From assembly GCA_965371225.1 (NCBI GenBank), contig CBDUXP010000104.1, positions 1 through 8,452 of the forward strand: 8,452 nt of DNA, in the 5' to 3' direction. Made by a program: the position numbers and the translations under genes. The first letter of the stretch is position 1. Each line of letters starts with the position of its first letter. Positions 1-8,452 of the stretch are shown here, in pieces. The notes below the pieces were generated by a model. That model was not told the DNA's origin. It saw only the letters and a list, made by a program, of their open reading frames with translations, and ran no database searches. This stretch comes from CBDUXP01 sp965371225 [NCBI: uncultured bacterium] (GTDB taxonomy: Bacteria > Abyssobacteria > SURF-5 > CBDUXP01).

Positions 1-773
1 GCCGCGCCCGATCTGCACGCGCCTTCCCCGGCCCGCGGCCGTCGCCCCGCGCCGGGGCCCCCCGAGCCCCCGGCGCCCGGGCCCTCACCGCACCTCCTGC
101 GCGCGGCGCGCACCAGCGTTTCGACGTGGTACAGAGGCGCCAGGTTCCGCGTCGACACCACCGTCCGGCCCCGCTGCGACGCATCCAGCCCCATGCGAAA
201 GAGCGACTCGTCGTAACCCACGGGGATGACCTGCACGTCCACCGCGGGGGGATACGCGTGCGCGGCCTCCGCCAGATGGTCCGCCACCGCCACGACCCGG
301 TCCACGCCGTGCAGCACCCGCCCGGTCGCGCGCCGTACCGCCCGGCTGCGCTGCGGGAACACGAGCATGTCCGACCCGTGAAGCGACAGCACCACGGGCA
401 GGCGCAACCGCCGCCCGGCGGCGACCGCCAGCATGCCGCAGGGCACGGGGCCGTGCGCGTGGAGTAGCGCGGCGGGCGCGGCGGCGTGCGCCTCGGCAAT
501 GGCGCGGATCCCCGCGCGCCGGTACCGGAAGGCCCGCAGCGGAGTGATGCGCAGGTCGCCCAAGCGGGCGTCATGCCGCCCGAAGACGAAGCGGCGCACG
601 TCGACCTGCCCATCTTCGGCGCGGGTCGGACTGTCGCGATACAGGCGCGCCGCCACGGCGACGCTCGCCGTGCCCGCGGCCGCGAGCCGGCCGAGCAGTT
701 GCCGGTAGTTCTGGCCCTCGCGGCGACCGTGCGCGTCGTCCGGATACGCGGGCACCACGTGCAACACGCGCAT
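1..773 (-). CDS. GT4-family glycosyltransferase, partial (C-terminal part off the left edge)
   Basis: This is the last visible gene of the minus-strand operon, open from the ATG at 773 to the window edge (257 codons). I translated it by hand. It starts MRVLHVVPAYPDD, a typical GT-B N-terminal strand and loop. LHAHGP (about residues 104-109), SLHGSDM (130-136), RVVAVADHL (about 159-167), IPVGYDESLFR (183-193) and VVSTRNLAPLYHVETL (205-220) follow in the order seen in GT4 enzymes, which move a sugar from a nucleotide-sugar donor to an acceptor in the cytoplasm. The start overlaps the ATP-grasp stop by one base (TGATG), so coupled translation is likely. Full-length relatives are about 370-400 aa, so over a third is missing. 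After residue 225 the reading turns into Gly/Arg/Ala-rich residues unlike the family. A shifted frame fits better, so a frameshift or poor base calls near 90-110 are possible. Donor and acceptor are unknown. Confidence 0.82.
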   Translation of the reverse strand, partial: MRVLHVVPAYPDDAHGRREGQNYRQLLGRLAAAGTASVAVAARLYRDSPTRAEDGQVDVRRFVFGRHDARLGDLRITPLRAFRYRRAGIRAIAEAHAAAPAALLHAHGPVPCGMLAVAAGRRLRLPVVLSLHGSDMLVFPQRSRAVRRATGRVLHGVDRVVAVADHLAEAAHAYPPAVDVQVIPVGYDESLFRMGLDASQRGRTVVSTRNLAPLYHVETLVRAARRRCGEGPGAGGSGGPGAGRRPRAGEGACRSGA

Positions 774-1927
774 CAGCCGGCACCCGGCTGGGGCCGCCCG
801 TGGGGGGCACGCCACCGCCCGCGCGTCTGCCACAGGATGCCCGCCGCCTGCGCCACCTGCACCGCGTGCGGCAGCGGATCGCGCCAGCGCCAGTCTGACC
901 GTGCATGCGGATCGACCACGTCCGCAAACAGCCCGCGGGCCGCGGACCAGGAGGTGGCAGCCTGCGCCAGCGCGGCCGGGGCGGGCCAATGGACCCGGAC
1001 ACCACTGGGATAGTCCGCCGGTGGATCCACCGATTCCCCGCCGGCGAGCGCCACCGTCCAGCGCGGGAAGTGCAGCCCGCACGCCAGCGCCAGGTCCAGC
1101 GACCCCCAAAATTTCGTGTTGACCTCGAGCAAAACCAGTCGCCCCGACTCCGCCTCGCGCTTGCATTCCACCATAGCCGGCCCGTGCCACTCCAGCCGGT
1201 CGAGCAGCGCGCGGCCCACCTCGGCCAGCGGCGCATCGTGCGTCGATTCCGCACTCACGCTAATCCCACCGGTGGCGGGGTACTCGCGCCGGCGGCGGTG
1301 CGTGTACGACGCGACGCACCGGCCCCGGTCATACAGCGCAAAGAACCCGACCCCCTCTCCCCGCACGTACTCCTGCACCACCAGCGCGCCGTGGACGGGC
1401 AACCAGGAACGGACACGCGCCTCCGCCTCGCCGGGGGTATTCACGTACTGGATGACCCCGGAGCCTTGGGCCGCCTTGACGACGGCCGGAAAGCCGAACT
1501 CGGCCAGTTCGCCGGGAATCTCCTGGTCCGGGGCGCAGGTCACGGTGCGAGGCACCGCCAGCCCCGCAGCCGCGGCCGCCTCGCCCACCCGCCCTTTGTG
1601 CGAAGCCAGGTCCAGGGTCGGCGTGGGCGCGAGGCAGGTGCGGGCGGGCGCGAGCTGGTCCCGGGCCCGCGCCACCACGCGCGTGGTGAGGTCCTTCAGC
1701 GGCAAGACCACGTCGATACGATCGCGCTGGATGATGCGGCAGAGGTGGTCGACGAATCCGCCGGCCGCACTGTCATACGAGCGTCCACGGGCGCACGCGC
1801 GTGACCAACAGGCGGCGGCGAGCCAGGGGGCGGGCGACAGCAGGTGCACGGCGTGGCCGGCGGCGGACACGTCCCGCACCACCGGCAGCGCCTGCTTGGC
1901 TTGCCCGTCGCACACCAGCACGCGCAT
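773..1927 (-). CDS. ATP-grasp family ligase (carbamoyl-phosphate-synthase-like, COG3919-type)
   Basis: This 384-aa cytosolic protein has an ATP-grasp layout. A Rossmann-like preATP domain starts MRVLVCDGQAKQALPVV, with DVVLPLKD at 72-79. The nucleotide-binding part includes K111 (SHKGRVGEAA), FPAVVKAAQGSG with K151, and VVQEYVRGEG with E186. The acidic metal site is LLEVNTKFWGSLDLA, with E268 and N270. ATP-grasp enzymes activate a carboxylate as an acyl phosphate and join it to an amine, thiol or other nucleophile. Stand-alone members of this type often sit in surface polysaccharide clusters. Its ATG overlaps the upstream deacetylase stop by one base and its stop overlaps the next start, so it is a middle gene of a coupled operon. 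I infer that it decorates the saccharide made by the neighbours or prepares a precursor. The substrate cannot be assigned; the C-terminal 70 residues (after about 315) look lineage-specific. Confidence 0.85.
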   Translation of the reverse strand: MRVLVCDGQAKQALPVVRDVSAAGHAVHLLSPAPWLAAACWSRACARGRSYDSAAGGFVDHLCRIIQRDRIDVVLPLKDLTTRVVARARDQLAPARTCLAPTPTLDLASHKGRVGEAAAAAGLAVPRTVTCAPDQEIPGELAEFGFPAVVKAAQGSGVIQYVNTPGEAEARVRSWLPVHGALVVQEYVRGEGVGFFALYDRGRCVASYTHRRRREYPATGGISVSAESTHDAPLAEVGRALLDRLEWHGPAMVECKREAESGRLVLLEVNTKFWGSLDLALACGLHFPRWTVALAGGESVDPPADYPSGVRVHWPAPAALAQAATSWSAARGLFADVVDPHARSDWRWRDPLPHAVQVAQAAGILWQTRGRWRAPHGRPQPGAG

Positions 1928-3732
1928 CAGGCAGCGGCCGGCTCCGCCCGGAACTCCAACGGGCGTTCCGGACCCAACTCACCAATGGTGAACTCCAGGG
2001 CGTCCCCCTCGCGCCGCGTCTCCACGGGCGCCCCCCCGGCAAAGTCCACCCGGTCGGGGCGGACGCCCGCCACCGTAAAGGCGAGGCCCGCCAGAGGCTC
2101 GGGCGCGTCGATACGCCACTGCCACGCGGCGCCGTCGCGGCGGACCGTCCAGCGGAGCGCGGCGCGACTGCGCCACCACTCGACGAGGGCGCCGCACGGG
2201 CCCAGCCACGCCCCCCCCGCGCGCGCGCGCTGCACCATCCGCTCGTAGGTCAATCGCCAGGGATGCGCGGGGTCGGCGAAGAAGCGCTGATGCCAATCGG
2301 CCGCGCCGGCACCGCCGCTCAGGCGCAACTGATCGAGCACGCCGTCAAGCGTGGATTGGACCTGCTGGCTGGTGCTGCACTCCCGGTCGTAAAGTTGCCC
2401 GTCCATGAGCACCAGGGGCAGTTCCCACAGGGCCAGGCTCGCTTCCTCCTCCTCGTCCCACGGGTGGTACGGCAAGGCGAGGCCCGACCGGAATCCCGTC
2501 CGGTCGCGATAGCTCCAGCTTGTGTCGTACGTCAGGCCGGCCGCCGCCTGCACCCGCCACACCTCAGGCGCCTCCCCCTGGAGAAAGTGCTGGCGCACGC
2601 CGCCCACGGATTGCCCAATGCAGTGCTCCAGCGCTTCCCGCTCGGCGGCCAGTAGCGCGGCATCCCGATGGGAGAGGTAGCTCCCGTGCAGGCCCACCTC
2701 GCACCCGTGGTCGATCAAGTAGGCACTGCTCCCCCGCACCCGCCCATCGGAGAGGCCATAGTCCGGGTCATAAAGTCTGCTCATCAAACCATTTGTCCTA
2801 GCCGACTTACTGTAAAAGTAGAAAGACGACCGCACCCCGAGGGCTTCATCGGCGGCCTGACATTCCTCGACGGCCCAGAAGTCCGCCCGGGCGCCGGCGC
2901 GAACCCCGTCCGCGATGGCGGCGATGGCCCGGCCGGGTGCCCGTTGGGCAAGGGCGAGTGCGGCCCGGCGGCCCGCATGCCGGACCTGCTTGAGCAGGTG
3001 AACCGGGGTGCGCCGGGCCACATCCACATCGTGGCTGAGCGCCAGCGCCCAGGTCTTGCCCTCCGGGTAGCGCGCCGCCGCCACCCGGGGAATGCCCGCC
3101 TCGCGCGCGAGCCAGTCGCAGCACCACCGCAGAGCGGACAACCCATGATTGGCCCAGGGAAACTTCACCAGGTGCTCCGGCTCCCCCGTCCGCGCGTACA
3201 AGCCCGCCACCGGATGGCCCGCCAAAGCCAGCGCCCGGTCACGGCCGGCCCCCAACGCCCGCACCAGCAGCGTCCCCAGGTCGCTGCCCACGTACACGGC
3301 CGGTTGGCGCCCGCCCCGGGGCTGGAGCCCCACCACGACTGGGGTGCCCGCCGCGGTATGCGCCAGTTCAATCGCCCCCGGCAGGGTGACCGGTTCCTCA
3401 TACCCCAGCAGCGGAATCGCCGGCCCCGCCTCGTCCAGCGCGTGGGCCAGCACCAGCTCGGTGGGTCGCACGGCGCCCGCGCGGCGCATGCGCCGCGGCA
3501 GGTCCGGCCGCCCGTCATCGCTCCACACACTCACATCCGTCCGGGCCAGCCACAGGAGGGGCAACGTCGGGTGGGGTTCGGGCGGGGTCGGCCCCCAGTC
3601 GAGCAGAATCGCGTCCGGCGGCGGGGTGGCGGTCAGCGGCTGGACCGGTTCCCAGCCGGACCACTGGGCCAGAAGATTGCCCACGGCGGCGACCGGAGCC
3701 GGCACCGGCGTTCCCCCCCACAGCAGGTGCAT
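1927..3732 (-). CDS. Polysaccharide deacetylase-like (NodB-fold) protein with extra N- and C-terminal domains
   Basis: This is a 601-aa protein. The middle (about 225-450) is a carbohydrate esterase 4/NodB-like domain. LSHDVD (232-237) carries the catalytic and metal aspartates, EVGLHGSYLSH (345-355) has H349 as the metal-ligand candidate, VRQHF has R380, and TYDTSW lies at 401-406. In this subgroup the usual second histidine of H-x3-H is not at its normal place (H349-G-S-Y-L), so metal binding may differ or activity may be altered. Residues 1-220 match no domain I recognise but are well ordered (YVGSDLGTLLVRALG, FPWANHGLSALRWCCDWL). Residues about 520-600 look like a small beta-rich domain. 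No signal peptide is visible, unlike secreted deacetylases, so it may act on a cytoplasmic or lipid-linked glycan. The ATG at 3732 lies 27 bp after the GT2 stop; its stop overlaps the ATP-grasp start by one base. Confidence 0.82.
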   Translation of the reverse strand: MHLLWGGTPVPAPVAAVGNLLAQWSGWEPVQPLTATPPPDAILLDWGPTPPEPHPTLPLLWLARTDVSVWSDDGRPDLPRRMRRAGAVRPTELVLAHALDEAGPAIPLLGYEEPVTLPGAIELAHTAAGTPVVVGLQPRGGRQPAVYVGSDLGTLLVRALGAGRDRALALAGHPVAGLYARTGEPEHLVKFPWANHGLSALRWCCDWLAREAGIPRVAAARYPEGKTWALALSHDVDVARRTPVHLLKQVRHAGRRAALALAQRAPGRAIAAIADGVRAGARADFWAVEECQAADEALGVRSSFYFYSKSARTNGLMSRLYDPDYGLSDGRVRGSSAYLIDHGCEVGLHGSYLSHRDAALLAAEREALEHCIGQSVGGVRQHFLQGEAPEVWRVQAAAGLTYDTSWSYRDRTGFRSGLALPYHPWDEEEEASLALWELPLVLMDGQLYDRECSTSQQVQSTLDGVLDQLRLSGGAGAADWHQRFFADPAHPWRLTYERMVQRARAGGAWLGPCGALVEWWRSRAALRWTVRRDGAAWQWRIDAPEPLAGLAFTVAGVRPDRVDFAGGAPVETRREGDALEFTIGELGPERPLEFRAEPAAA

Positions 3733-3759
3733 CGCGACGTGCTTGCGCCCGGCCGGCGG

Positions 3760-4755
3760 TCAGCGCCGGCCGGCTTCCAGCAGCGCCTCCAGGCGCCGGT
3801 TCTCCATCTGCACCCGGTACATCTCCTTGCGGAGCGCCACGAGCTGGGTGCCGATCAGCCCGAGGGACAGGAACTGCAATCCGCCGATGGCCGAGACCAC
3901 GAACACGGTCACCAGGGGCCGGGTGGGGTTGAACACCTCACGGACGTACGCGGAGAGCAGAATGGCCCCCACCACGAACGCGATGGCGAGGAACGCCACG
4001 CCGAGCAGACCGAACAGGAGCATGGGCTTCTCCAAATACGAGAACATCAGATGGCTGCGCACCGTCTGGCCCAAGCGGAACTTGGAGCGCCCCCCGGCGC
4101 GGCCCCGCAACTGCGCGGGGAATTCGCGCGCGTGAAAGCCCAGGGCCAGCGCTTTGCTGAGGATTTCCAGGTGGATTTCTTTCCCGTCGGATTCCAAGTC
4201 CAGCGCGTCGATCACCTCCCGCTTGTACGCGCGGAACATCTGGGTGACGGTGCTGAAGTTGCCGCTCATGACCAGATTGAGCACCCGATTGCCCAGGCGG
4301 CTGATGGCGAGCCGGCCCACCGGCACCCCGGCCGTGCTCCCCCCCGGCATGTACGGGGACGCGAGGGCCACGTGCAGGCCGGGGTACGTCTCCAACGCCT
4401 CCACCATGGTGAGGATCAGGGCGGGGTCGTAGCTGAGGTCCGCCTCGATGGTGACCAGATAGTCGCCCCGCGCATGCGCGAACCCGGTGCGCAGGCCGGC
4501 GCCGCGGCCCTGATTGGCCGGATGGTTCAGGAGCCGGAAGCGCGGATCCCGAGTGCAGATGGCCTCGGCCGCCGCCTGGGTGCCGTCCGTGCTGCCGTCA
4601 TTGACGAAGATGACTTCCCAGTCCCGCGGGCTGCCTTCCAGGACTGCGGTGAGCTGCGCCGCCGTGTCCGCGATCGTCTCCACCTCGTTATACATGGGCG
4701 AGATAACGGTCAGCATGGGTGGCGCGCCGGTGGGCGCGGGAGCGAATTCGGGCAT
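3760..4755 (-). CDS. GT2-family (DPM1/polyprenyl-phosphate-sugar-synthase-like) glycosyltransferase with two C-terminal membrane helices
   Basis: This is a 331-aa protein if it starts at the ATG at 4755. It has a GT-A fold: LTVISPMYNE near the start, FVNDGSTDG with the donor-binding NDG at about 52-54, GRGAGLRTGFAHARGDY before the metal-binding EAD (104-106), and then QMFRAYKREV. Two hydrophobic helices follow at about 244-270 and 282-308, and a charged tail (RKEMYRVQMENRRLEALLEAGRR) that may form a short coiled coil. Such enzymes move a sugar to polyprenyl phosphate or a membrane acceptor at the inner membrane face. Another in-frame ATG at 4788 would add 11 residues. I prefer 4755: it has a weak GAAGAA ribosome site, and the promoter's predicted start point lies about 36 nt upstream but only about 3 nt before 4788. 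The frame stays open to 5022, but that part overlaps moaB and its promoter. First gene of the operon. Confidence 0.88.
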   Translation of the reverse strand: MPEFAPAPTGAPPMLTVISPMYNEVETIADTAAQLTAVLEGSPRDWEVIFVNDGSTDGTQAAAEAICTRDPRFRLLNHPANQGRGAGLRTGFAHARGDYLVTIEADLSYDPALILTMVEALETYPGLHVALASPYMPGGSTAGVPVGRLAISRLGNRVLNLVMSGNFSTVTQMFRAYKREVIDALDLESDGKEIHLEILSKALALGFHAREFPAQLRGRAGGRSKFRLGQTVRSHLMFSYLEKPMLLFGLLGVAFLAIAFVVGAILLSAYVREVFNPTRPLVTVFVVSAIGGLQFLSLGLIGTQLVALRKEMYRVQMENRRLEALLEAGRR

Positions 4756-4793
4756 TTCTTCGCCCGACGGCCGCAGCGACCCGACCATCGGCG

Positions 4794-4806
4794 TGCTATG
4801 GTAGCA
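4794..4806. promoter_or_regulatory. Palindromic divergent promoter with overlapping extended -10 elements
   Basis: The 13-bp sequence TGCTATGGTAGCA is a palindrome (TGCTA-TGG-TAGCA). On the plus strand it gives TGC-TATGGT, an extended -10 (TGn plus TAnnnT), for moaB. On the minus strand it gives TGC-TACCAT for the glycan operon. Both predicted start points fall about 7 nt beyond the hexamers. That leaves leaders of about 35 nt to the moaB GTG (4844) and about 36 nt to the GT2 ATG (4755). No good -35 hexamer is correctly spaced for either direction, which is acceptable for extended -10 promoters. Confidence 0.55.
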
Positions 4807-4843
4807 TGCGCAACAGGTTGACACCAGCGAGGTTGCAACTATC

Positions 4844-5344
4844 GTGAGCGAACGAACGCACAAAGCGGCGGCCCCCCAGAGTCTCCCGTGCCAGATCCTG
4901 ACCGTCTCGGACACCCGGACGCTGGAGACGGACAAGAGCGGCGCCCTCATCGCAGAATTATTGCAGGCGGCGGGCCACACCGTGACCGGCCGCAGCGTGG
5001 TGCCCGATGATCCCCCGGCCATTCAGGAACGGGTGCTGGCGTGGGTACGCGAGGGGGTGCCGGTGGTGCTGACCAACGGCGGGACCGGGATCGCCGCGCG
5101 GGACACCACTTACGAGGCGCTCTCGGCGATCATCGAGAAGCCCCTGGACGGCTTTGGCGAACTCTTCCGGATGCTCAGCTACGAGGAGATTGGCGCGGCG
5201 GCCATGCTCAGCCGCGCGGTGGCCGGCGTGGCGGGCCGCACCCTCATCATCGCCATGCCCGGCTCCAGCGGCGGCGTGCGTACCGCCATGGAGAAGCTCG
5301 TTATCCCCGAGCTGGGACACCTGGTCCAGCAGATCAACGCGTAA
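4844..5344 (+). CDS. moaB: Molybdenum cofactor biosynthesis protein MoaB (MoaB/MogA family)
   Basis: This 166-aa cytosolic protein belongs to the MoaB/MogA family, which binds molybdopterin and adenylylates it during molybdenum or tungsten cofactor synthesis. Family marks are ILTVSDTR (18-25), the molybdopterin-binding loop LTNGGTGIAARDTT (76-89, with D87), GFGELFRMLSYEEIG (103-117) and MPGSSGGV (138-145). Its length is close to MoaB proteins of 165-180 aa. The start is GTG, with a weak GAGG 11 nt upstream; an in-frame TAG at 4802-4804 and the absence of any other good start nearby support it. It faces away from the glycan operon across a shared promoter region. No other molybdopterin gene is in the window, so it is separated from the rest of that pathway here. 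MogA is a less likely label; the two differ mainly in context. Confidence 0.92.
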   Translation: MSERTHKAAAPQSLPCQILTVSDTRTLETDKSGALIAELLQAAGHTVTGRSVVPDDPPAIQERVLAWVREGVPVVLTNGGTGIAARDTTYEALSAIIEKPLDGFGELFRMLSYEEIGAAAMLSRAVAGVAGRTLIIAMPGSSGGVRTAMEKLVIPELGHLVQQINA

Positions 5345-5359
5345 ATCACGGAAGGCGGT

Positions 5360-5374
5360 TGCGCCGCAGGCGCA
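5360..5374. other. Small perfect hairpin in the moaB/DJ-1 gap
   Basis: TGCGCC, a GCA loop and GGCGCA form a perfect 6-bp stem 16 bp after the moaB stop. There is no T-run after it, so it is not a classic intrinsic terminator. It could slow or partly end moaB transcription or protect the mRNA 3' end. Confidence 0.3.
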
Positions 5375-5398
5375 GAGTCGGGTCCCGGGCCGGGCGGG

Positions 5399-5404
5399 TA
5401 CAAT
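5399..5404 (+). promoter_or_regulatory. Possible -10 box (TACAAT) for the DJ-1-family gene
   Basis: TACAAT matches the TATAAT consensus at five of six positions and lies 7 nt before the ATG at 5412, so a transcript from it would start at or next to that ATG and be leaderless. No -35-like hexamer is seen 16-18 bp upstream. The ATG at 5403 overlaps this box, which bears on the start choice. Confidence 0.3.
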
Positions 5405-5411
5405 GTCGCCT

Positions 5412-5987
5412 ATGCCACGCGTCCTGGTCTGCATCGCGCCGGGGTTTGAGGACATCGAAGCGATCACGCCGATCGACGTCCTGCGGCGGGCGGGGTGCGA
5501 GGTGGTGGTCGCCGGGCTGCTGGCCGGGCCGATCACCAGTTCGCGGGGGCTGACCATCTGCCCCGACGCGCCCCTGGACGCGATCGTCCACGAAGAGTTC
5601 GATGCCATCGTGTTGCCGGGCGGCATGCCGGGCGCGGCGCACCTGCGCGACGACCCGCGCGTCATCGGGCTGCTGCAGCGGCACGCGGAACGGAACCGGA
5701 TCACCGCCGCCATCTGTGCGGGTCCCATCGCCCTGCACCAGGCCGGCCTGTTGAAAGACAAAGTGGTCACGAGCCACCCCACCGTCCAGCGCGACTTGAC
5801 CGACGCGGCGGAGTATTCCGAAGCGCGCGTGGTGGTGGACGGGCAGGTGATTACGAGCCGCGGGCCGGGCACGGCCATGGAATTCGCGTTTCAGCTCGTG
5901 GTCGCCCTCTGCGGTGCCGACAAAGCCGCCGAGGTCAACGCGCCCATGTTCGGCCGCATCGACGGCGTGCCGGTAGGCGAGACTTGA
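5412..5987 (+). CDS. DJ-1/PfpI (ThiJ) family protein, DJ-1 subgroup
   Basis: This 191-aa protein aligns with DJ-1/YajL proteins (about 190 aa) along its whole length. PRVLVCIAPGFEDIEAI opens it, with E16 at the place of human DJ-1 E18. SSRGLTICPD (43-52) and IVLPGGMPGA (66-75) follow. The nucleophile elbow AAICAGP has C102 (human C106), TSHP has H122 (human H126), and SRGPGTAMEFA closes it at 149-159. These proteins respond to oxidation at the cysteine and are reported to remove methylglyoxal or its adducts, though the exact activity is disputed. Another ATG at 5403 would give MSPMPRV. I prefer 5412, where the family's N-terminus normally begins and which fits the -10-like box. It lies 67 bp after moaB and may be co-transcribed with it. 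No functional tie to molybdopterin is evident. Confidence 0.9.
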   Translation: MPRVLVCIAPGFEDIEAITPIDVLRRAGCEVVVAGLLAGPITSSRGLTICPDAPLDAIVHEEFDAIVLPGGMPGAAHLRDDPRVIGLLQRHAERNRITAAICAGPIALHQAGLLKDKVVTSHPTVQRDLTDAAEYSEARVVVDGQVITSRGPGTAMEFAFQLVVALCGADKAAEVNAPMFGRIDGVPVGET

Positions 5988-6273
5988 ACCGCCAAAGTCG
6001 CTGAACCGCCAAGACGCCAAGATCGCCAAGGAGGAATAGAGAACCACCAAGACACCAAGAACACCGAGGGTAAGGAAGGAAGAAAGAAAGAAGGAAATCG
6101 AAAAACCTTCCACCAAGGCCACGAAGAAATACGAAGATGAGTGGATTCCTCGTGGCACACGGGCTGTTGCCCATCGTGCGCGTTCCTCTTCGTGATTCTT
6201 GGTGTGCTTCGTGGACAGTTTCTTGGGGTTCTCTTTTTTGTCTTACCTTGGCGCTCTTGGCGTCTTGGCGGTT
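5987..6273 (+). repeat. Long hairpin-forming intergenic repeat, copy A (287 bp)
   Basis: This copy fills the first two-thirds of the 429-bp gap after the DJ-1 gene. Terminal inverted repeats of 28 bp (6004-6031 and 6246-6273) pair at 27 of 28 positions and are made of a 9-nt period, CGCCAAGAC with variants. A second, weaker tandem of ACCAAGA-type units lies at about 6042-6067. A polypurine tract of AAGG/AAAG units follows at about 6070-6105. Positions 6098-6273 are the 176-nt core shared without gaps with copy B. An extra half unit (AACCGCCAAAG) lies at 5987-5997, touching the last base of the DJ-1 stop codon. No protein frame here is credible. It could be a MITE-like mobile repeat, a REP/BIME-like structure or a structured RNA; no target duplication is visible. 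Confidence 0.85.
6155..6181 (+). other. Apical hairpin of repeat copy A
   Basis: GCACACG (6155-6161) pairs with CGTGCGC (6175-6181) at six of seven positions. GGC (6162-6164) and GCC (6169-6171) form an inner stem with loop TGTT and a CAT bulge on the 3' side. The hairpin sits near the middle of the long inverted repeat, where the tip of a folded transcript would be. Confidence 0.5.
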
Positions 6274-6281
6274 CACCGTCG

Positions 6282-6303
6282 GGGCGGACCCGCGTGTCCG
6301 CCC
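6282..6303. other. GC-rich perfect hairpin between repeat A and the membrane-protein gene
   Basis: GGGCGGAC (6282-6289) and GTCCGCCC (6296-6303) form a perfect 8-bp stem around a 6-nt loop (CCGCGT). It lies 9 bp beyond repeat A and has no counterpart beside copy B. There is no T-run. It is followed by CCTGCACC direct repeats (6330-6337, 6350-6357) and a 5-bp GCAGG/CCTGC hairpin (6339-6354), so the stretch 6274-6360 looks like a second, unrelated repeat type. Confidence 0.5.
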
Positions 6304-6360
6304 TCCGCGGAGCGACACCCGGGTTGGCCCCTGCACCAGCAGGAGTGCGCCTGCACCGCA

Positions 6361-6369
6361 TGCTACACT
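6361..6369 (+). promoter_or_regulatory. Extended -10 promoter element for the membrane-protein gene
   Basis: TGCTACACT is an extended -10 (TGn followed by TACACT) of the same form as the divergent promoter at 4794-4806. Transcription would start near 6376, giving a leader of about 41 nt before the ATG at 6417, similar to the leaders inferred for moaB and the GT2 gene. No convincing -35 hexamer was found. Confidence 0.45.
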
Positions 6370-6416
6370 CGATCCACGCCGACACCCACCGGCCTCACGT
6401 TCGAAAGCACAGCGTC

Positions 6417-7013
6417 ATGAACGCCCAGGCGGCTGCCCCCTCGTCTCGTCCGCTCATCCGGTGGTTGAAGCCCAAGCTGGGCGCGGGTGAACTTCTGGGG
6501 ACGGCGTGGGCTGCGGTCTGCCTCGCATATTTCGCTCTGCTCATCTGGGCAACGGAACAATCGCCTTTCGAGGAGGCGCTCCAACGTTCCACGATCGATC
6601 TAATCCTCACCTGGGATTTCAGAATCTTGATGTGCCTCAGCGTGATAACGCCGGGAGCAATTGCCGGCAGCGTGATTGAGCGTGGCCTCGTCAAGCGCAT
6701 CGCAACTCACAGGCTCCCATTCCGCCGGCATCGGCTCGGCAGCGTGCTTGGATGCAGCCTGGCCGCGTTTGCGGGCTATCCGATGGCCTTTTTCGCCAGC
6801 CTGATGATCGTCGGCCACTTTCCGGTTCTCATTGACTCCTACGTCGGTGGGATGGCGCCTTTGGTGGTATGGCTCTTCGTGATGGGGGCAACTGTTCTGC
6901 TCGATATCGTAGGCGCAGCAGTTGGTATGCTGACGGGGTGTGGCCTGCATTGGCTTGGAAGCCTCGTCATGTCCGCCGTGCCGCTGGCCGGGAGTGGATT
7001 ACCTGATGCCTAA
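6417..7013 (+). CDS. Unrecognised multi-pass membrane protein
   Basis: This is a 198-aa protein I do not recognise. It starts MNAQAAAPSSRP with a short basic cytoplasmic-type tail (RWLKPK), followed by hydrophobic segments at about 25-46, 69-88, 108-136 and 146-172, and a weaker one at about 175-192. The loop at 89-107 is strongly basic (KRIATHRLPFRRHR) and probably cytoplasmic by the positive-inside rule. Acidic and polar loops lie at 47-68 and 137-144. There is no enzyme motif. The ATG at 6417 is chosen because upstream in-frame sequence is repeat DNA; no clear ribosome site precedes it. G+C, estimated from sampled rows, is about 60% against 65-70% in its neighbours, with rows near 50%, which hints at foreign origin. 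It overlaps the radical SAM gene by 8 bp, so the two are probably co-translated. Confidence 0.75.
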   Translation: MNAQAAAPSSRPLIRWLKPKLGAGELLGTAWAAVCLAYFALLIWATEQSPFEEALQRSTIDLILTWDFRILMCLSVITPGAIAGSVIERGLVKRIATHRLPFRRHRLGSVLGCSLAAFAGYPMAFFASLMIVGHFPVLIDSYVGGMAPLVVWLFVMGATVLLDIVGAAVGMLTGCGLHWLGSLVMSAVPLAGSGLPDA

Positions 7014-7953
7014 AACTGACATGCAACAGCCGAATGCTCCGCGCCCCATCGTGTACGACATGCCGCTGTACCGGCCGCCGAGCGAGCATGACGCGCTGAT
7101 CCTGCAGGTGACGCTGGGGTGCAGCAACAACGAGTGCACGTTCTGCGAGATGTACACGAGCAAGCGCTTCGGGGTGCGCAAGGCGGACGAGGTGCTGGCG
7201 GAACTGGCGTGGGCGCGGAAAGAAGTCGGCGGCCGCGCGGATCAGCTGCGGAAGATCTTCCTCGCCGACGGCGACGCGTTCCTCCTGTCCTCGCGCCGGC
7301 TGCTCCCCATCGTCGACGCGTGCAAGGACGCGTTCCCCAACGCGCGCGTCTCGGCGTACGCGCAACCGTCGAACATCCTGGCGAAAAAGCCGGAAGAGCT
7401 GGACGCGCTGCGCGACGCGGGCCTGACGCGGGTGTACGTGGGCGTGGAATCGGGGGACCCGGACACGCTGGAACGCCTGAAGAAGGGCGCGACGGATCGC
7501 GAGATCGTCGATTCGATCCTGCTCGCCGAAGAGCACGGCATCGAGGTGTCGGCCACGGTGCTGCTCGGCGTCGGCGGCGCGGACGACGCGGGGATGGAGC
7601 GGCACGCGGACGCGACGGCGCGCGTACTCAGCGATGCGAGCCCGACCTTCGCCTCCGCGCTGGTGTGCAGCGTGGCCGAAGCGAGTCCGCGGTTCTACAG
7701 GCCCATGCCCGGCGGGTTTGCGCTCCCCGAGCGCGAGGGCACGCTGGTGGAATTGCGCCGGCTCATCGCGGGCATCGCGCCCTTCCGCCCCGTCGAATTC
7801 CGCTCGAACCACGGGTCCAACCACCTGGCACTGAAGGGGTCCCTCCCCGCCGACCGCGACGCGCTGCTCGGCGCCATCGATCGCGTGCTCGACGAACTTC
7901 ACACCCACGGCGACAGCCCGCACCTCCGCCCCGAATCGGCGCGGGGCCTCTGA
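7006..7953 (+). CDS. Radical SAM protein with CX4CX2C cluster motif
   Basis: This 315-aa cytosolic protein belongs to the Elp3-like radical SAM superfamily, which uses a [4Fe-4S] cluster and S-adenosylmethionine to make a radical. VTLGCSNNECTFCEMY (35-50) carries C39, C44 and C47. The spacing is CX4CX2C instead of the standard CX3CX2C, a variant I recall in a group of short proteins with GCSxNxCTFCxMY. KIFLADGDAF (83-92) and YVGVESGD (144-151) are later barrel strands, the second being the SAM-contacting region. RSNHGSNHLALKG (266-278) is a conserved-looking C-terminal motif. No extra Cys-rich domain is visible, so a second cluster is unlikely. The ATG at 7006 has GGAG 11 nt upstream and lies inside the end of the membrane gene; the ATG at 7021 is weaker. 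The substrate is unknown, and a role with the membrane protein is only inferred from overlap. Confidence 0.88.
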   Translation: MPKTDMQQPNAPRPIVYDMPLYRPPSEHDALILQVTLGCSNNECTFCEMYTSKRFGVRKADEVLAELAWARKEVGGRADQLRKIFLADGDAFLLSSRRLLPIVDACKDAFPNARVSAYAQPSNILAKKPEELDALRDAGLTRVYVGVESGDPDTLERLKKGATDREIVDSILLAEEHGIEVSATVLLGVGGADDAGMERHADATARVLSDASPTFASALVCSVAEASPRFYRPMPGGFALPEREGTLVELRRLIAGIAPFRPVEFRSNHGSNHLALKGSLPADRDALLGAIDRVLDELHTHGDSPHLRPESARGL

Positions 7954-7961
7954 CGGACTGC

Positions 7962-8205
7962 AACCGCCAAGACGCGGAACAGCACTGAACCGCCAAGGCG
8001 CCAAGACCGCCAAGGACGGAAGGAGAAGCTCGAAAACCCTTCCACCAAGGACACGATGACGCACGAAGATGATTGGATTGTTCGCGGCACACGGGCCGTT
8101 GCCAATCGTGCGCGTTCCTCTTCGTGATTCTTAGTGTACTTCGTGGATAGTTTCCTGGGTTTCTCTTCTTCGTCTTGCCTTGGCGTCCTTGGCGTCTTGG
8201 CGGTT
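7962..8205 (+). repeat. Long hairpin-forming intergenic repeat, copy B (244 bp)
   Basis: This is a second copy of the 5987-6273 element in the same orientation, starting 9 bp after the radical SAM stop. The 28-bp terminal inverted repeats (7988-8015 and 8178-8205) pair at 25 of 28 positions. Its 176-nt core (8030-8205) aligns gap-free with 6098-6273, with about 22 differences by hand count. The left arm block 7985-8016 matches 6001-6032 at 30 of 32 positions. It lacks the extra 52 nt (second tandem and polypurine tract) of copy A. It separates the convergent radical SAM and glycerol kinase genes, where a strong two-way hairpin could end transcription from both sides. Confidence 0.85.
8087..8113 (+). 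other. Apical hairpin of repeat copy B
   Basis: The same GCACACG/CGTGCGC outer stem and GGC/GCC inner stem as in copy A are present. The only changes are in the loop (CGTT for TGTT) and the bulge (AAT for CAT). All stem bases are unchanged between copies. Confidence 0.5.
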
Positions 8206-8243
8206 CCAAATTATCTTCGAGCCTTAGACCCGCCGCCAGTCGC

Positions 8244-8452
8244 TCAAGGGCCGAGCGCGCAGGCCTGGCGCCACGCGGCGAAGCTGGTGTCTCGTTCGTC
8301 GGCTGACCAGCGCGGCTCGAAGACGCGGTCCACACGGTGGAGCGTATCGACCGTGGCCTCGTCCCACATGCCGCAACTCTGCCCGGCGAGCAACGCCGCG
8401 CCGAACGCGGTGGCTTCCAGCGGCGCCATGCGCTCCACCGGCTGGCCGACCA
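8244..8452 (-). CDS. glpK: Glycerol kinase, C-terminal fragment (N-terminus off the right edge)
   Basis: The last 68 codons of a minus-strand gene are visible. PVERMAPLEATAFGAALLAGQSCGMW, then RVFEPRWSADERDTSFAAWRQA, follows the glycerol kinase C-terminus: the E. coli enzyme has [25 protein letters not shown] followed by [21 protein letters not shown]. Glycerol kinase phosphorylates glycerol to glycerol 3-phosphate in the cytoplasm. The ATAFGAALLAG helix belongs to the ATPase domain common to FGGY kinases, and the following GxW and FEP...R...AAW pattern favours glycerol kinase over xylulokinase. The stop is TGA at 8246-8244. The protein ends soon after the W-x-x-A helix and lacks the acidic tail of the E. 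coli enzyme. It converges on the radical SAM gene, with repeat copy B between them. Confidence 0.85.
   Translation of the reverse strand, partial: VGQPVERMAPLEATAFGAALLAGQSCGMWDEATVDTLHRVDRVFEPRWSADERDTSFAAWRQACALGP

Follow-up and report, generated by a model that had tools for sequence, protein, structure and literature searches.

The window analysed here is a stretch of 8,452 nucleotides (nt) from the uncultured bacterium CBDUXP01 sp965371225 (Abyssobacteria; contig CBDUXP010000104.1, positions 1 to 8,452). It carries two hairpin-forming intergenic repeats, which lie 3' of the stop codons of a DJ-1/PfpI gene (copy 1) and a radical SAM gene (copy 2). Comparison with other genomes showed that arms of the same kind enclose a gene for a small nuclease-like protein, GxxExxY, a partner that the initial annotation of the window had overlooked. 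We consider it probable that the window repeats are nested, gene-less copies of small mobile GxxExxY elements, resembling miniature inverted-repeat transposable elements (MITEs) or repetitive extragenic palindromic (REP) sequences.

Each end of each copy consists of three CGCCAAG heptads with spacings of 8 and 9. The outer arms of copy 1 lie at 6003-6031 on the plus strand (exact pattern 6007-6030) and, inverted, at 6246-6274 on the minus strand (6247-6270), and those of copy 2 at 7987-8015 (plus; 7991-8014) and 8178-8206 (minus; 8179-8202). The pattern CGCCAAG-N-CGCCAAG-NN-CGCCAAG had four perfect matches in the window, two per strand and precisely at the four copy ends, with 0.00 expected and none in 200 shuffles; the exact matches of the 28-nt arm AACCGCCAAGRCGCCAAGNNCGCCAAGG were these same four ends. 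Inside both copies there was a second inverted arm pair of the CACCAAG/CACGAAG type, at 6109-6139 (plus) and 6186-6214 (minus) in copy 1 and at 8041-8071 (plus) and 8118-8147 (minus) in copy 2; the two inner 3' arms supplied the inner-arm pattern used in the searches below. Copy 1 showed a third arm set on its 5' side only (6042-6070, plus; CACCAAG, CACCAAG, CACCGAG), which had no clear 3' partner and was mostly missing from copy 2. The positions at which the initial annotation let the copies begin are extra single units outside the 5' arms, a degenerate AACCGCCAAAG at 5987-5997 (plus), overlapping the end of the DJ-1/PfpI stop codon, and AACCGCCAAGACGC at 7962-7975 (plus), 8 nt past the radical SAM gene.

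The likeness and terminal pairing first reported for the two copies were reproduced. Aligned without gaps, the copies agreed best over 176 nt (from 6098, shift 1932), where they held 154 identities; a longer gap-free alignment of 6080-6274 with 8012-8206 (both plus strand) held 166 in 195, and the ends paired at 27 of 28 positions in copy 1 (6004-6031 with 6246-6273) and 25 of 28 in copy 2 (7988-8015 with 8178-8205). Outside recognisable heptad units, 106 of 132 positions were identical (shuffled mean 33.7, maximum 52 in 2000 shuffles), so that the likeness of the copies exceeds simple CCAAG tandems. The single-strand folds of the copies had z scores of -10.0 and -9.3, and none of 200 shuffles folded equally well for either copy. 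The window element had no match among plasmids, and for the radical SAM gene of the window a search of plasmid proteins returned only matches below 60% identity. That the copies bracket a two-gene unit looks incidental, since they are separate hairpins, each following the stop of its own gene. A composite transposon formed by two copies around two genes was set aside, position being its sole support. An open frame of 198 amino acids between the copies (6417-7013) was without a Pfam match.

Environmental genomes in general commonly contain repeats of this kind. A search with the inner-arm pattern located eight places in seven genomes (by record title one Dehalococcoidia, one Chloroflexota, two Acidobacteria, one Geobacteraceae and two Planctomycetota), two of the places, L001 and L006, being in one genome. 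Both arms were visible at six of the eight; at L006 and L008 the partner arm lay outside the displayed stretch, for L008 because it was 500 nt away. All seven genomes also contained the two-unit pattern CACGAAG-NN-CACGAAG, with 12-59 occurrences apiece; its reversed control was absent from six of them and occurred once in the other. In the Dehalococcoidia genome a gene-less CACGAAG hairpin (L001) stood between the ATP synthase alpha and gamma genes. About nine of 15 aligned gene-less CACGAAG hairpins from one Geobacteraceae genome (L160-L176) had a common interior and outer sequence (AAAACGGCTGTT...) and form a distinct subfamily. A shorter 16-nt pattern was present in 51 viral-contig stretches, and the exact 28-nt window arm in five (L012, L021, L031, L055 and L370), whose available sequence contained no GxxExxY gene.

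The gene between the arms was first visible at two places. At L008, an open gene of 124 codons with a TTG start (275-646) lies between CACGAAG arms located at 182-207 and 695-720. The gene at L003, which has its arms within 1051-1485, is broken. Both genes are GxxExxY (TIGR04256; PF13366, PDDEXK_3), and the L008 gene is a full-length TIGR04256 member with 147.6 bits against a cut-off of 35. A hidden Markov model (HMM) scan of the window, L001-L059 and L370 found GxxExxY in L003 and L008 only, and all seven genomes with the inner-arm pattern carried GxxExxY genes (26 matches, some being pieces of one gene). In wider genome draws GxxExxY was present in 35 of 79 Planctomycetota (E limit 1e-8), 19 of 81 Chloroflexota (1e-15) and 30 of 80 Acidobacteriota (1e-15), and in none of 14 control genomes; phylum labels here follow the record titles of the seed genomes.

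We measured the bracketing of GxxExxY genes with a motif-free test, in which the 300 nt upstream of a gene were aligned to the reverse complement of the 300 nt downstream and a score of 14 was taken as the threshold. For each search the loci with the best scores were taken (30 in each of three draws), which is not a random sample. The HMM called 135 genes, and four (L090, L201, L085 and L252) were excluded because their flanks were too short. Of the remaining 131, 117 reached the threshold, compared with 0 of 131 shuffles, 57 of 600 cross-pairs and 3 of 212 same-locus pseudo-genes, these three possibly holding real hairpins. In a further set, which had no controls, 18 of 24 genes reached the threshold. 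The 117 bracketed elements had a median length of 522 nt (range 411-883). Their units were diverse (CACGAAG, CACGGAG, CACAGAG, CGCAGAT, CACGAAT, CACGAAA, CACGGGG and some outside the CRC form), and the four-letter tail of the unit was identical on both arms in 69 of the 131 elements (shuffled mean 9.6, maximum 18). One GxxExxY gene with CGCGAAG arms was located between fabD and fabG (L264, Sphingomonas plasmid record NZ_CP155749.1). Phages, plasmids and viral contigs were rejected as carriers: a relative of one GxxExxY query was found in 2 of 50,697 and 8 of 72,556 records, and two scans of viral contigs gave no confirmed relative. A GxxExxY relative annotated as a PD-(D/E)XK nuclease is present in the archaeal virus Halogranum tailed virus 1 (KC292026.1), and the accessible part of a paper on an algal virus also lists a GxxExxY protein.

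The arm type of the window itself was also found around GxxExxY genes. The triple CGCCAAG heptad occurred in 6 of 158 genomes (3 of 80 Planctomycetota; 3 of 78 Acidobacteriota and Chloroflexota), with 60 arms in G228, 23 in G140, 7 in G242 and 4, 2 and 1 in the other three, counts that include the arms of the GxxExxY elements themselves. The three arm-rich genomes G228, G140 and G242 each carried one CGCCAAG-armed GxxExxY gene (L305, apparently frameshifted, L300 and L306) among their 14 GxxExxY matches, of which L201 was examined with a short flank. The right arm of L300, from the Chloroflexota draw, was identical to the outer 5' arm of window copy 2 at 27 of 28 positions. None of the 131-gene set had CGCCAAG as its consensus unit, and L100 showed single CGCCAAG units among CGCAAAG units. 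In these genomes, orphan CGCCAAG arms predict a GxxExxY partner.

We examined whether the arm type followed the lineage of the protein. The tree used for this covered 131 proteins, with few alignment columns for so many rows and with 59 of its 128 inner branches left open. On it, the seventh heptad letter required 8 changes (shuffled mean 35.3, minimum 30 of 300 shuffles), as counted on the 105 genes with a clear heptad, the other 26 being left out. The four-letter tail (letters 4-7) required 37 changes (shuffled mean 68.8, minimum 61) and letters 4-5 required 32 (50.7 and 44). The second letter gave no signal, because its 25 changes fell within the shuffled range (mean 28.5, minimum 23). Phylum required 48 changes over all 131 genes (shuffled mean 64.9, minimum 56), and protein relatives with the same heptad sat in different phyla; arm and gene thus remain linked when they are transferred. 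Protein columns 117, 64 and 118 went with the seventh letter and columns 8, 9 and 5 with letters 4-5, associations that are confounded by descent.

Two pairs of elements from different phyla were alike over little more than the element itself. L122 from the Planctomycetota draw and L225 from the Acidobacteriota draw were alike over 474 nt (71%; proteins 105/124), and L074 (Planctomycetota) and L195 (Chloroflexota) over 443 nt (69%; proteins 89/123). The likeness comprised arm, gene and arm and stopped at the arms, except for about 20 nt beyond the left side of L122/L225. Since arm and gene also travel together, the match between arm and protein does not by itself show recognition. Among Planctomycetota genomes, at least four heptad arms were found in 14 of 36 with GxxExxY and in 3 of 44 without it (Fisher p = 0.0007), a pattern that covers one spacing only and comes from related genomes.

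An AlphaFold2 model of GxxExxY built from 112 sequences had a predicted local distance difference test score of 94.7. Foldseek gave SSO0001 (4ic1), presumably a Cas4 protein, as the top solved match (E = 4e-4), followed by lambda exonuclease. In VIA-align 4ic1 scored Z 9.9 and the remaining rows 7.8 or less, a level that possibly reflects a mere common arrangement. A sequence search found no solved relative of GxxExxY. Residues E28, D68 and R120 were invariant and E78, K80, Q92 and Y96 nearly so, in a pattern that fits a PD-(D/E)XK site; the predicted fold, the E..D..ExK residues (E28, D68, E78 and K80) and the PF13366 match together place the protein, by fold and active-site residues, with the PD-(D/E)XK nucleases. 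Of 13 pairs computed, nine had a finite synonymous rate, and in eight of these the ratio of nonsynonymous to synonymous substitution rates (dN/dS) was 0.05-0.19; the ninth pair was too close for a verdict. The gene is under purifying selection. One element, which occupies an identical site in four of the Geobacteraceae genomes, is old, with dN/dS of about 0.06-0.10 in the four pairs computed.

A complete element measures about 410-880 nt. Its GxxExxY gene, some 124 codons long, follows a tandem-heptad arm and is followed by that arm in inverted form, the arm usually being three C-R-C-N-R-A-[G/T/A] units placed 8-11 nt apart. We propose that the GxxExxY protein would recognise the tandem heptads of its own arms and would cut the arm DNA, or a hairpin extruded from it, after which a further copy of the unit would be placed in intergenic DNA by host repair or replication. 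Where the arms match, gene-less units would be copied along in trans, in the manner assumed for MITEs and REPs, and the window copies may have arisen by such movement.

Further features of the insertion sites bear on this proposal. At the nuoF-nuoG junction of two genomes from the Chloroflexota draw (L204 and L223), the flanks of the element were 92-97% identical on the left and 100% on the right, and the two junctions held different GxxExxY elements, with CACAGAT arms in L204 and CACGAAT arms in L223; L204 kept one outer CACGAAT unit. The simplest reading is replacement or nesting at an occupied site, and nesting would also explain the nested arms of the window. At one junction (L194), two relatives without a visible hairpin had unrelated spacers and three others held other hairpin families. 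In Geobacteraceae relatives (L140-L150 and L268-L272), the same intergenic sites held different hairpin families (CACGAAG, ACAGGAT, CACGGAG, CACTAAG, GGGACCGG, GTTCGAT and GTAGGGGC), and shared intergenic sites behave as if they were hot spots for hairpins.

Several results weigh against the proposal. The window itself gave no GxxExxY match in the HMM scan, and 14 of the 131 genes and 6 of the 24 later ones stayed below the flank threshold. The three GxxExxY-free, arm-rich genomes among the 44 held 29 (G046), 108 (G058) and 10 (G080) arms, and in G011, with 85 arms, those listed were of types that its one GxxExxY gene lacks. The shuffles and Fisher's test ignored relatedness. The 117 gene-bearing elements showed no excess of target duplications: a 4-mer or longer was shared by 60 of 117 compared with 64.3 expected, although old copies may have lost theirs. 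No clean pre- and post-insertion pair turned up; where relatives of the Geobacteraceae genome lacked the element, their sites were diverged or carried other hairpins. At two further junctions relatives mostly held different sequences, and an apparent empty site in G087 retained an arm remnant. Among the loci fetched there were no near-identical gene-bearing copies within one genome (closest L129/L134, 85%), so that movement would be slow or old. A second, unrelated protein, TIGR02436, lies in the same architecture (see below), and the nuclease may therefore not be what moves such hairpins.

The initial annotation had seen in the repeats a mobile or structurally selected, MITE-like family. This stands in so far as the ends of gene-less copies are also those of gene-bearing elements and hairpins of this architecture recur in several phyla; a classical cut-and-paste MITE is not supported, given the lack of a target-duplication excess in the 117 relatives. 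Ordinary MITEs that share their ends with a classical DDE insertion sequence, towards which that annotation leaned, would account for the terminal inverted repeats, the intergenic position and the multiple copies. The gene found between such ends is nevertheless GxxExxY and not a transposase (no search was aimed at DDE elements with these ends), and together with the missing target duplications this makes the DDE explanation very improbable.

Inverted tandem arms also flank genes of TIGR02436, which we take to be the S23P family of ribosomal RNA intervening sequences: 21 of 29 genes were bracketed in a first batch, which left out L342 for its short flanks, and 17 of 20 in a second, or 38 of 49 overall (L320-L341 and L343-L369). 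The controls were bracketed in 1 of 57 and 0 of 40 cases (1 of 97); those of the second batch were scored with a smaller gap and with flanks of 250 nt, less than in the test itself. The architecture is thus wider than the nuclease. The arm period was 7 in 9 of 15 scored TIGR02436 arms of the second batch, compared with 8-10 in 79 of 80 scored GxxExxY arms.

These results also bear on the possibility that another agent, such as host repair or a different enzyme, moves the hairpins, and that GxxExxY and TIGR02436 are cargo or parasites that landed in their loops. An architecture common to two unrelated protein families, the many arms in the three GxxExxY-free genomes and the different elements with mixed arms at the one L204/L223 site would all fit such a mover. 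The two families nevertheless differ in their arms (period 8-10 and 7), and the arm letter follows the GxxExxY lineage across phyla, where cargo would be expected in any arm type. We regard this explanation as unlikely. Slightly less so, and still improbable, is an element acting at the level of RNA, in the manner of 23S rRNA intervening sequences, in which the hairpin works and is processed in the transcript, is harmless in operons and spreads through RNA, with GxxExxY as one of several riders. The very stable RNA folds, the bracketing of TIGR02436 in 38 of 49 cases and the insertions inside operons (fabD-fabG, ATP synthase alpha-gamma and nuoF-nuoG) point that way. Against it, hairpins in DNA fit the inverted arms equally well, and the top solved fold matches of GxxExxY are mostly DNA nucleases, though tRNA splicing endonucleases are listed too. 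The nested, gene-less GxxExxY copies proposed above thus keep our preference for the window.

Repeats of this kind have been noticed before under other readings. The initial annotation knew of no named family, which was nearly right: in one Geobacter genome, that of G. metallireducens, the accessible part of a 2009 paper describes paired arms of the CACGGAG type (PMC2700814). There, paired sites of three tandem TCTCCGTS[Y] repeats are class 2 of the predicted binding sites of global regulators, given alongside GGACCGG heptads; among classes 1-4, class 2, with its variable distance, reads as the CACGGAG arm type, and the GGACCGG heptads resemble the arms beside one TIGR02436 gene (L324). The paper takes its repeats as regulator sites or RNAs, and its accessible text and legends make no link to GxxExxY or to mobility. 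If the arms were bound by an IHF/HU-like global DNA-binding protein, which is the proposal made there for three tandem repeats paired on opposite strands, their intergenic placement would fit. Such binding would leave unexplained the bracketing of 117 of 131 GxxExxY genes, the cross-phylum likeness of arm, gene and arm, and the differing units within one genome, and we give this explanation very little weight. As far as the available passages go, multicopy sequences occupy 12% of the intergenic regions of G. bemidjiensis (PMC2996986) and a MITE named Chunjie is mentioned in Geobacter uraniireducens (PMC10969869). Searches of the literature for literal arm sequences found none, and the accessible passages that name GxxExxY contained nothing on mobility. 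We found no paper that links GxxExxY to tandem-heptad arms, in a search that most subscription papers and preprints lay beyond. The displayed descriptions of the library entries TIGR04256 and PF13366 do not mention arms, and the entries give no function past the nuclease superfamily.

The nearest known systems share parts of this anatomy. REPtrons (TnpA-REP/RAYT), in the available text on them (PMC8266576), likewise have many small, mostly intergenic palindromic repeats with a cognate gene beside copies, and there too the presence of the gene often tracks repeat abundance, protein and repeat co-evolve and the gene is rather housekeeping-like. They differ in that a REP is a palindrome of 20-50 nt behind a GTAG-type motif, while the arms here, including the three heptads of the window copies, are tandem heptads without GTAG, and in that the partner here is a PD-(D/E)XK and not an HUH protein. 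The GxxExxY gene is moreover bracketed by its arms and reaches 14 matches in a genome, while most genomes with tnpA-REP have a single copy of it. Insertion sequences and MITEs resemble the elements in having one gene between terminal inverted repeats and short gene-less copies that share the ends, and the window copies have the terminal inverted repeats, the length below about 500 nt and the lack of a gene that mark a MITE. Insertion sequences differ from the elements, in which no transposase was seen, the tandem-heptad ends vary widely and target duplications are not in excess. The 23S rRNA intervening sequences with S23p, in the accessible part of their description, are likewise selfish elements with a small gene inside, about 430 nt in length (PMC4990558), and their protein is unrelated; the sites here are intergenic, and the window copies lie between protein genes and have no match to Rfam families. 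The shape of the elements is therefore ordinary, an inverted-repeat element with gene-less copies, and the partner is new.

More tentatively, and at somewhat less than even chances, we suggest a new class of selfish prokaryotic element, in which a single small protein, not a transposase, is encoded between two inverted tandem-heptad arms and would read them. Elements of this class would be run by no fewer than two unrelated proteins, GxxExxY as a PD-(D/E)XK nuclease and TIGR02436 as a four-helix protein, and gene-less copies of the elements would account for much of the so far unexplained hairpin repeats between genes in Planctomycetota, Acidobacteriota, Chloroflexota and Geobacteraceae.

Such repeats are present by the dozen in the genomes searched, and we found no accepted origin for them. 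If the proposal is true, a large class of puzzling repeats would be slow-spreading mobile DNA. The repeats and a protein family without known function would become one testable system, in which the likely target of each protein may be readable from the arms of its own gene, and more than 100 natural protein-arm pairs are available from which a code of recognition could be worked out. Should the protein be what moves the arms, this would be a mobile element without a transposase; if it is not, some other process copies the hairpins and carries them between phyla.

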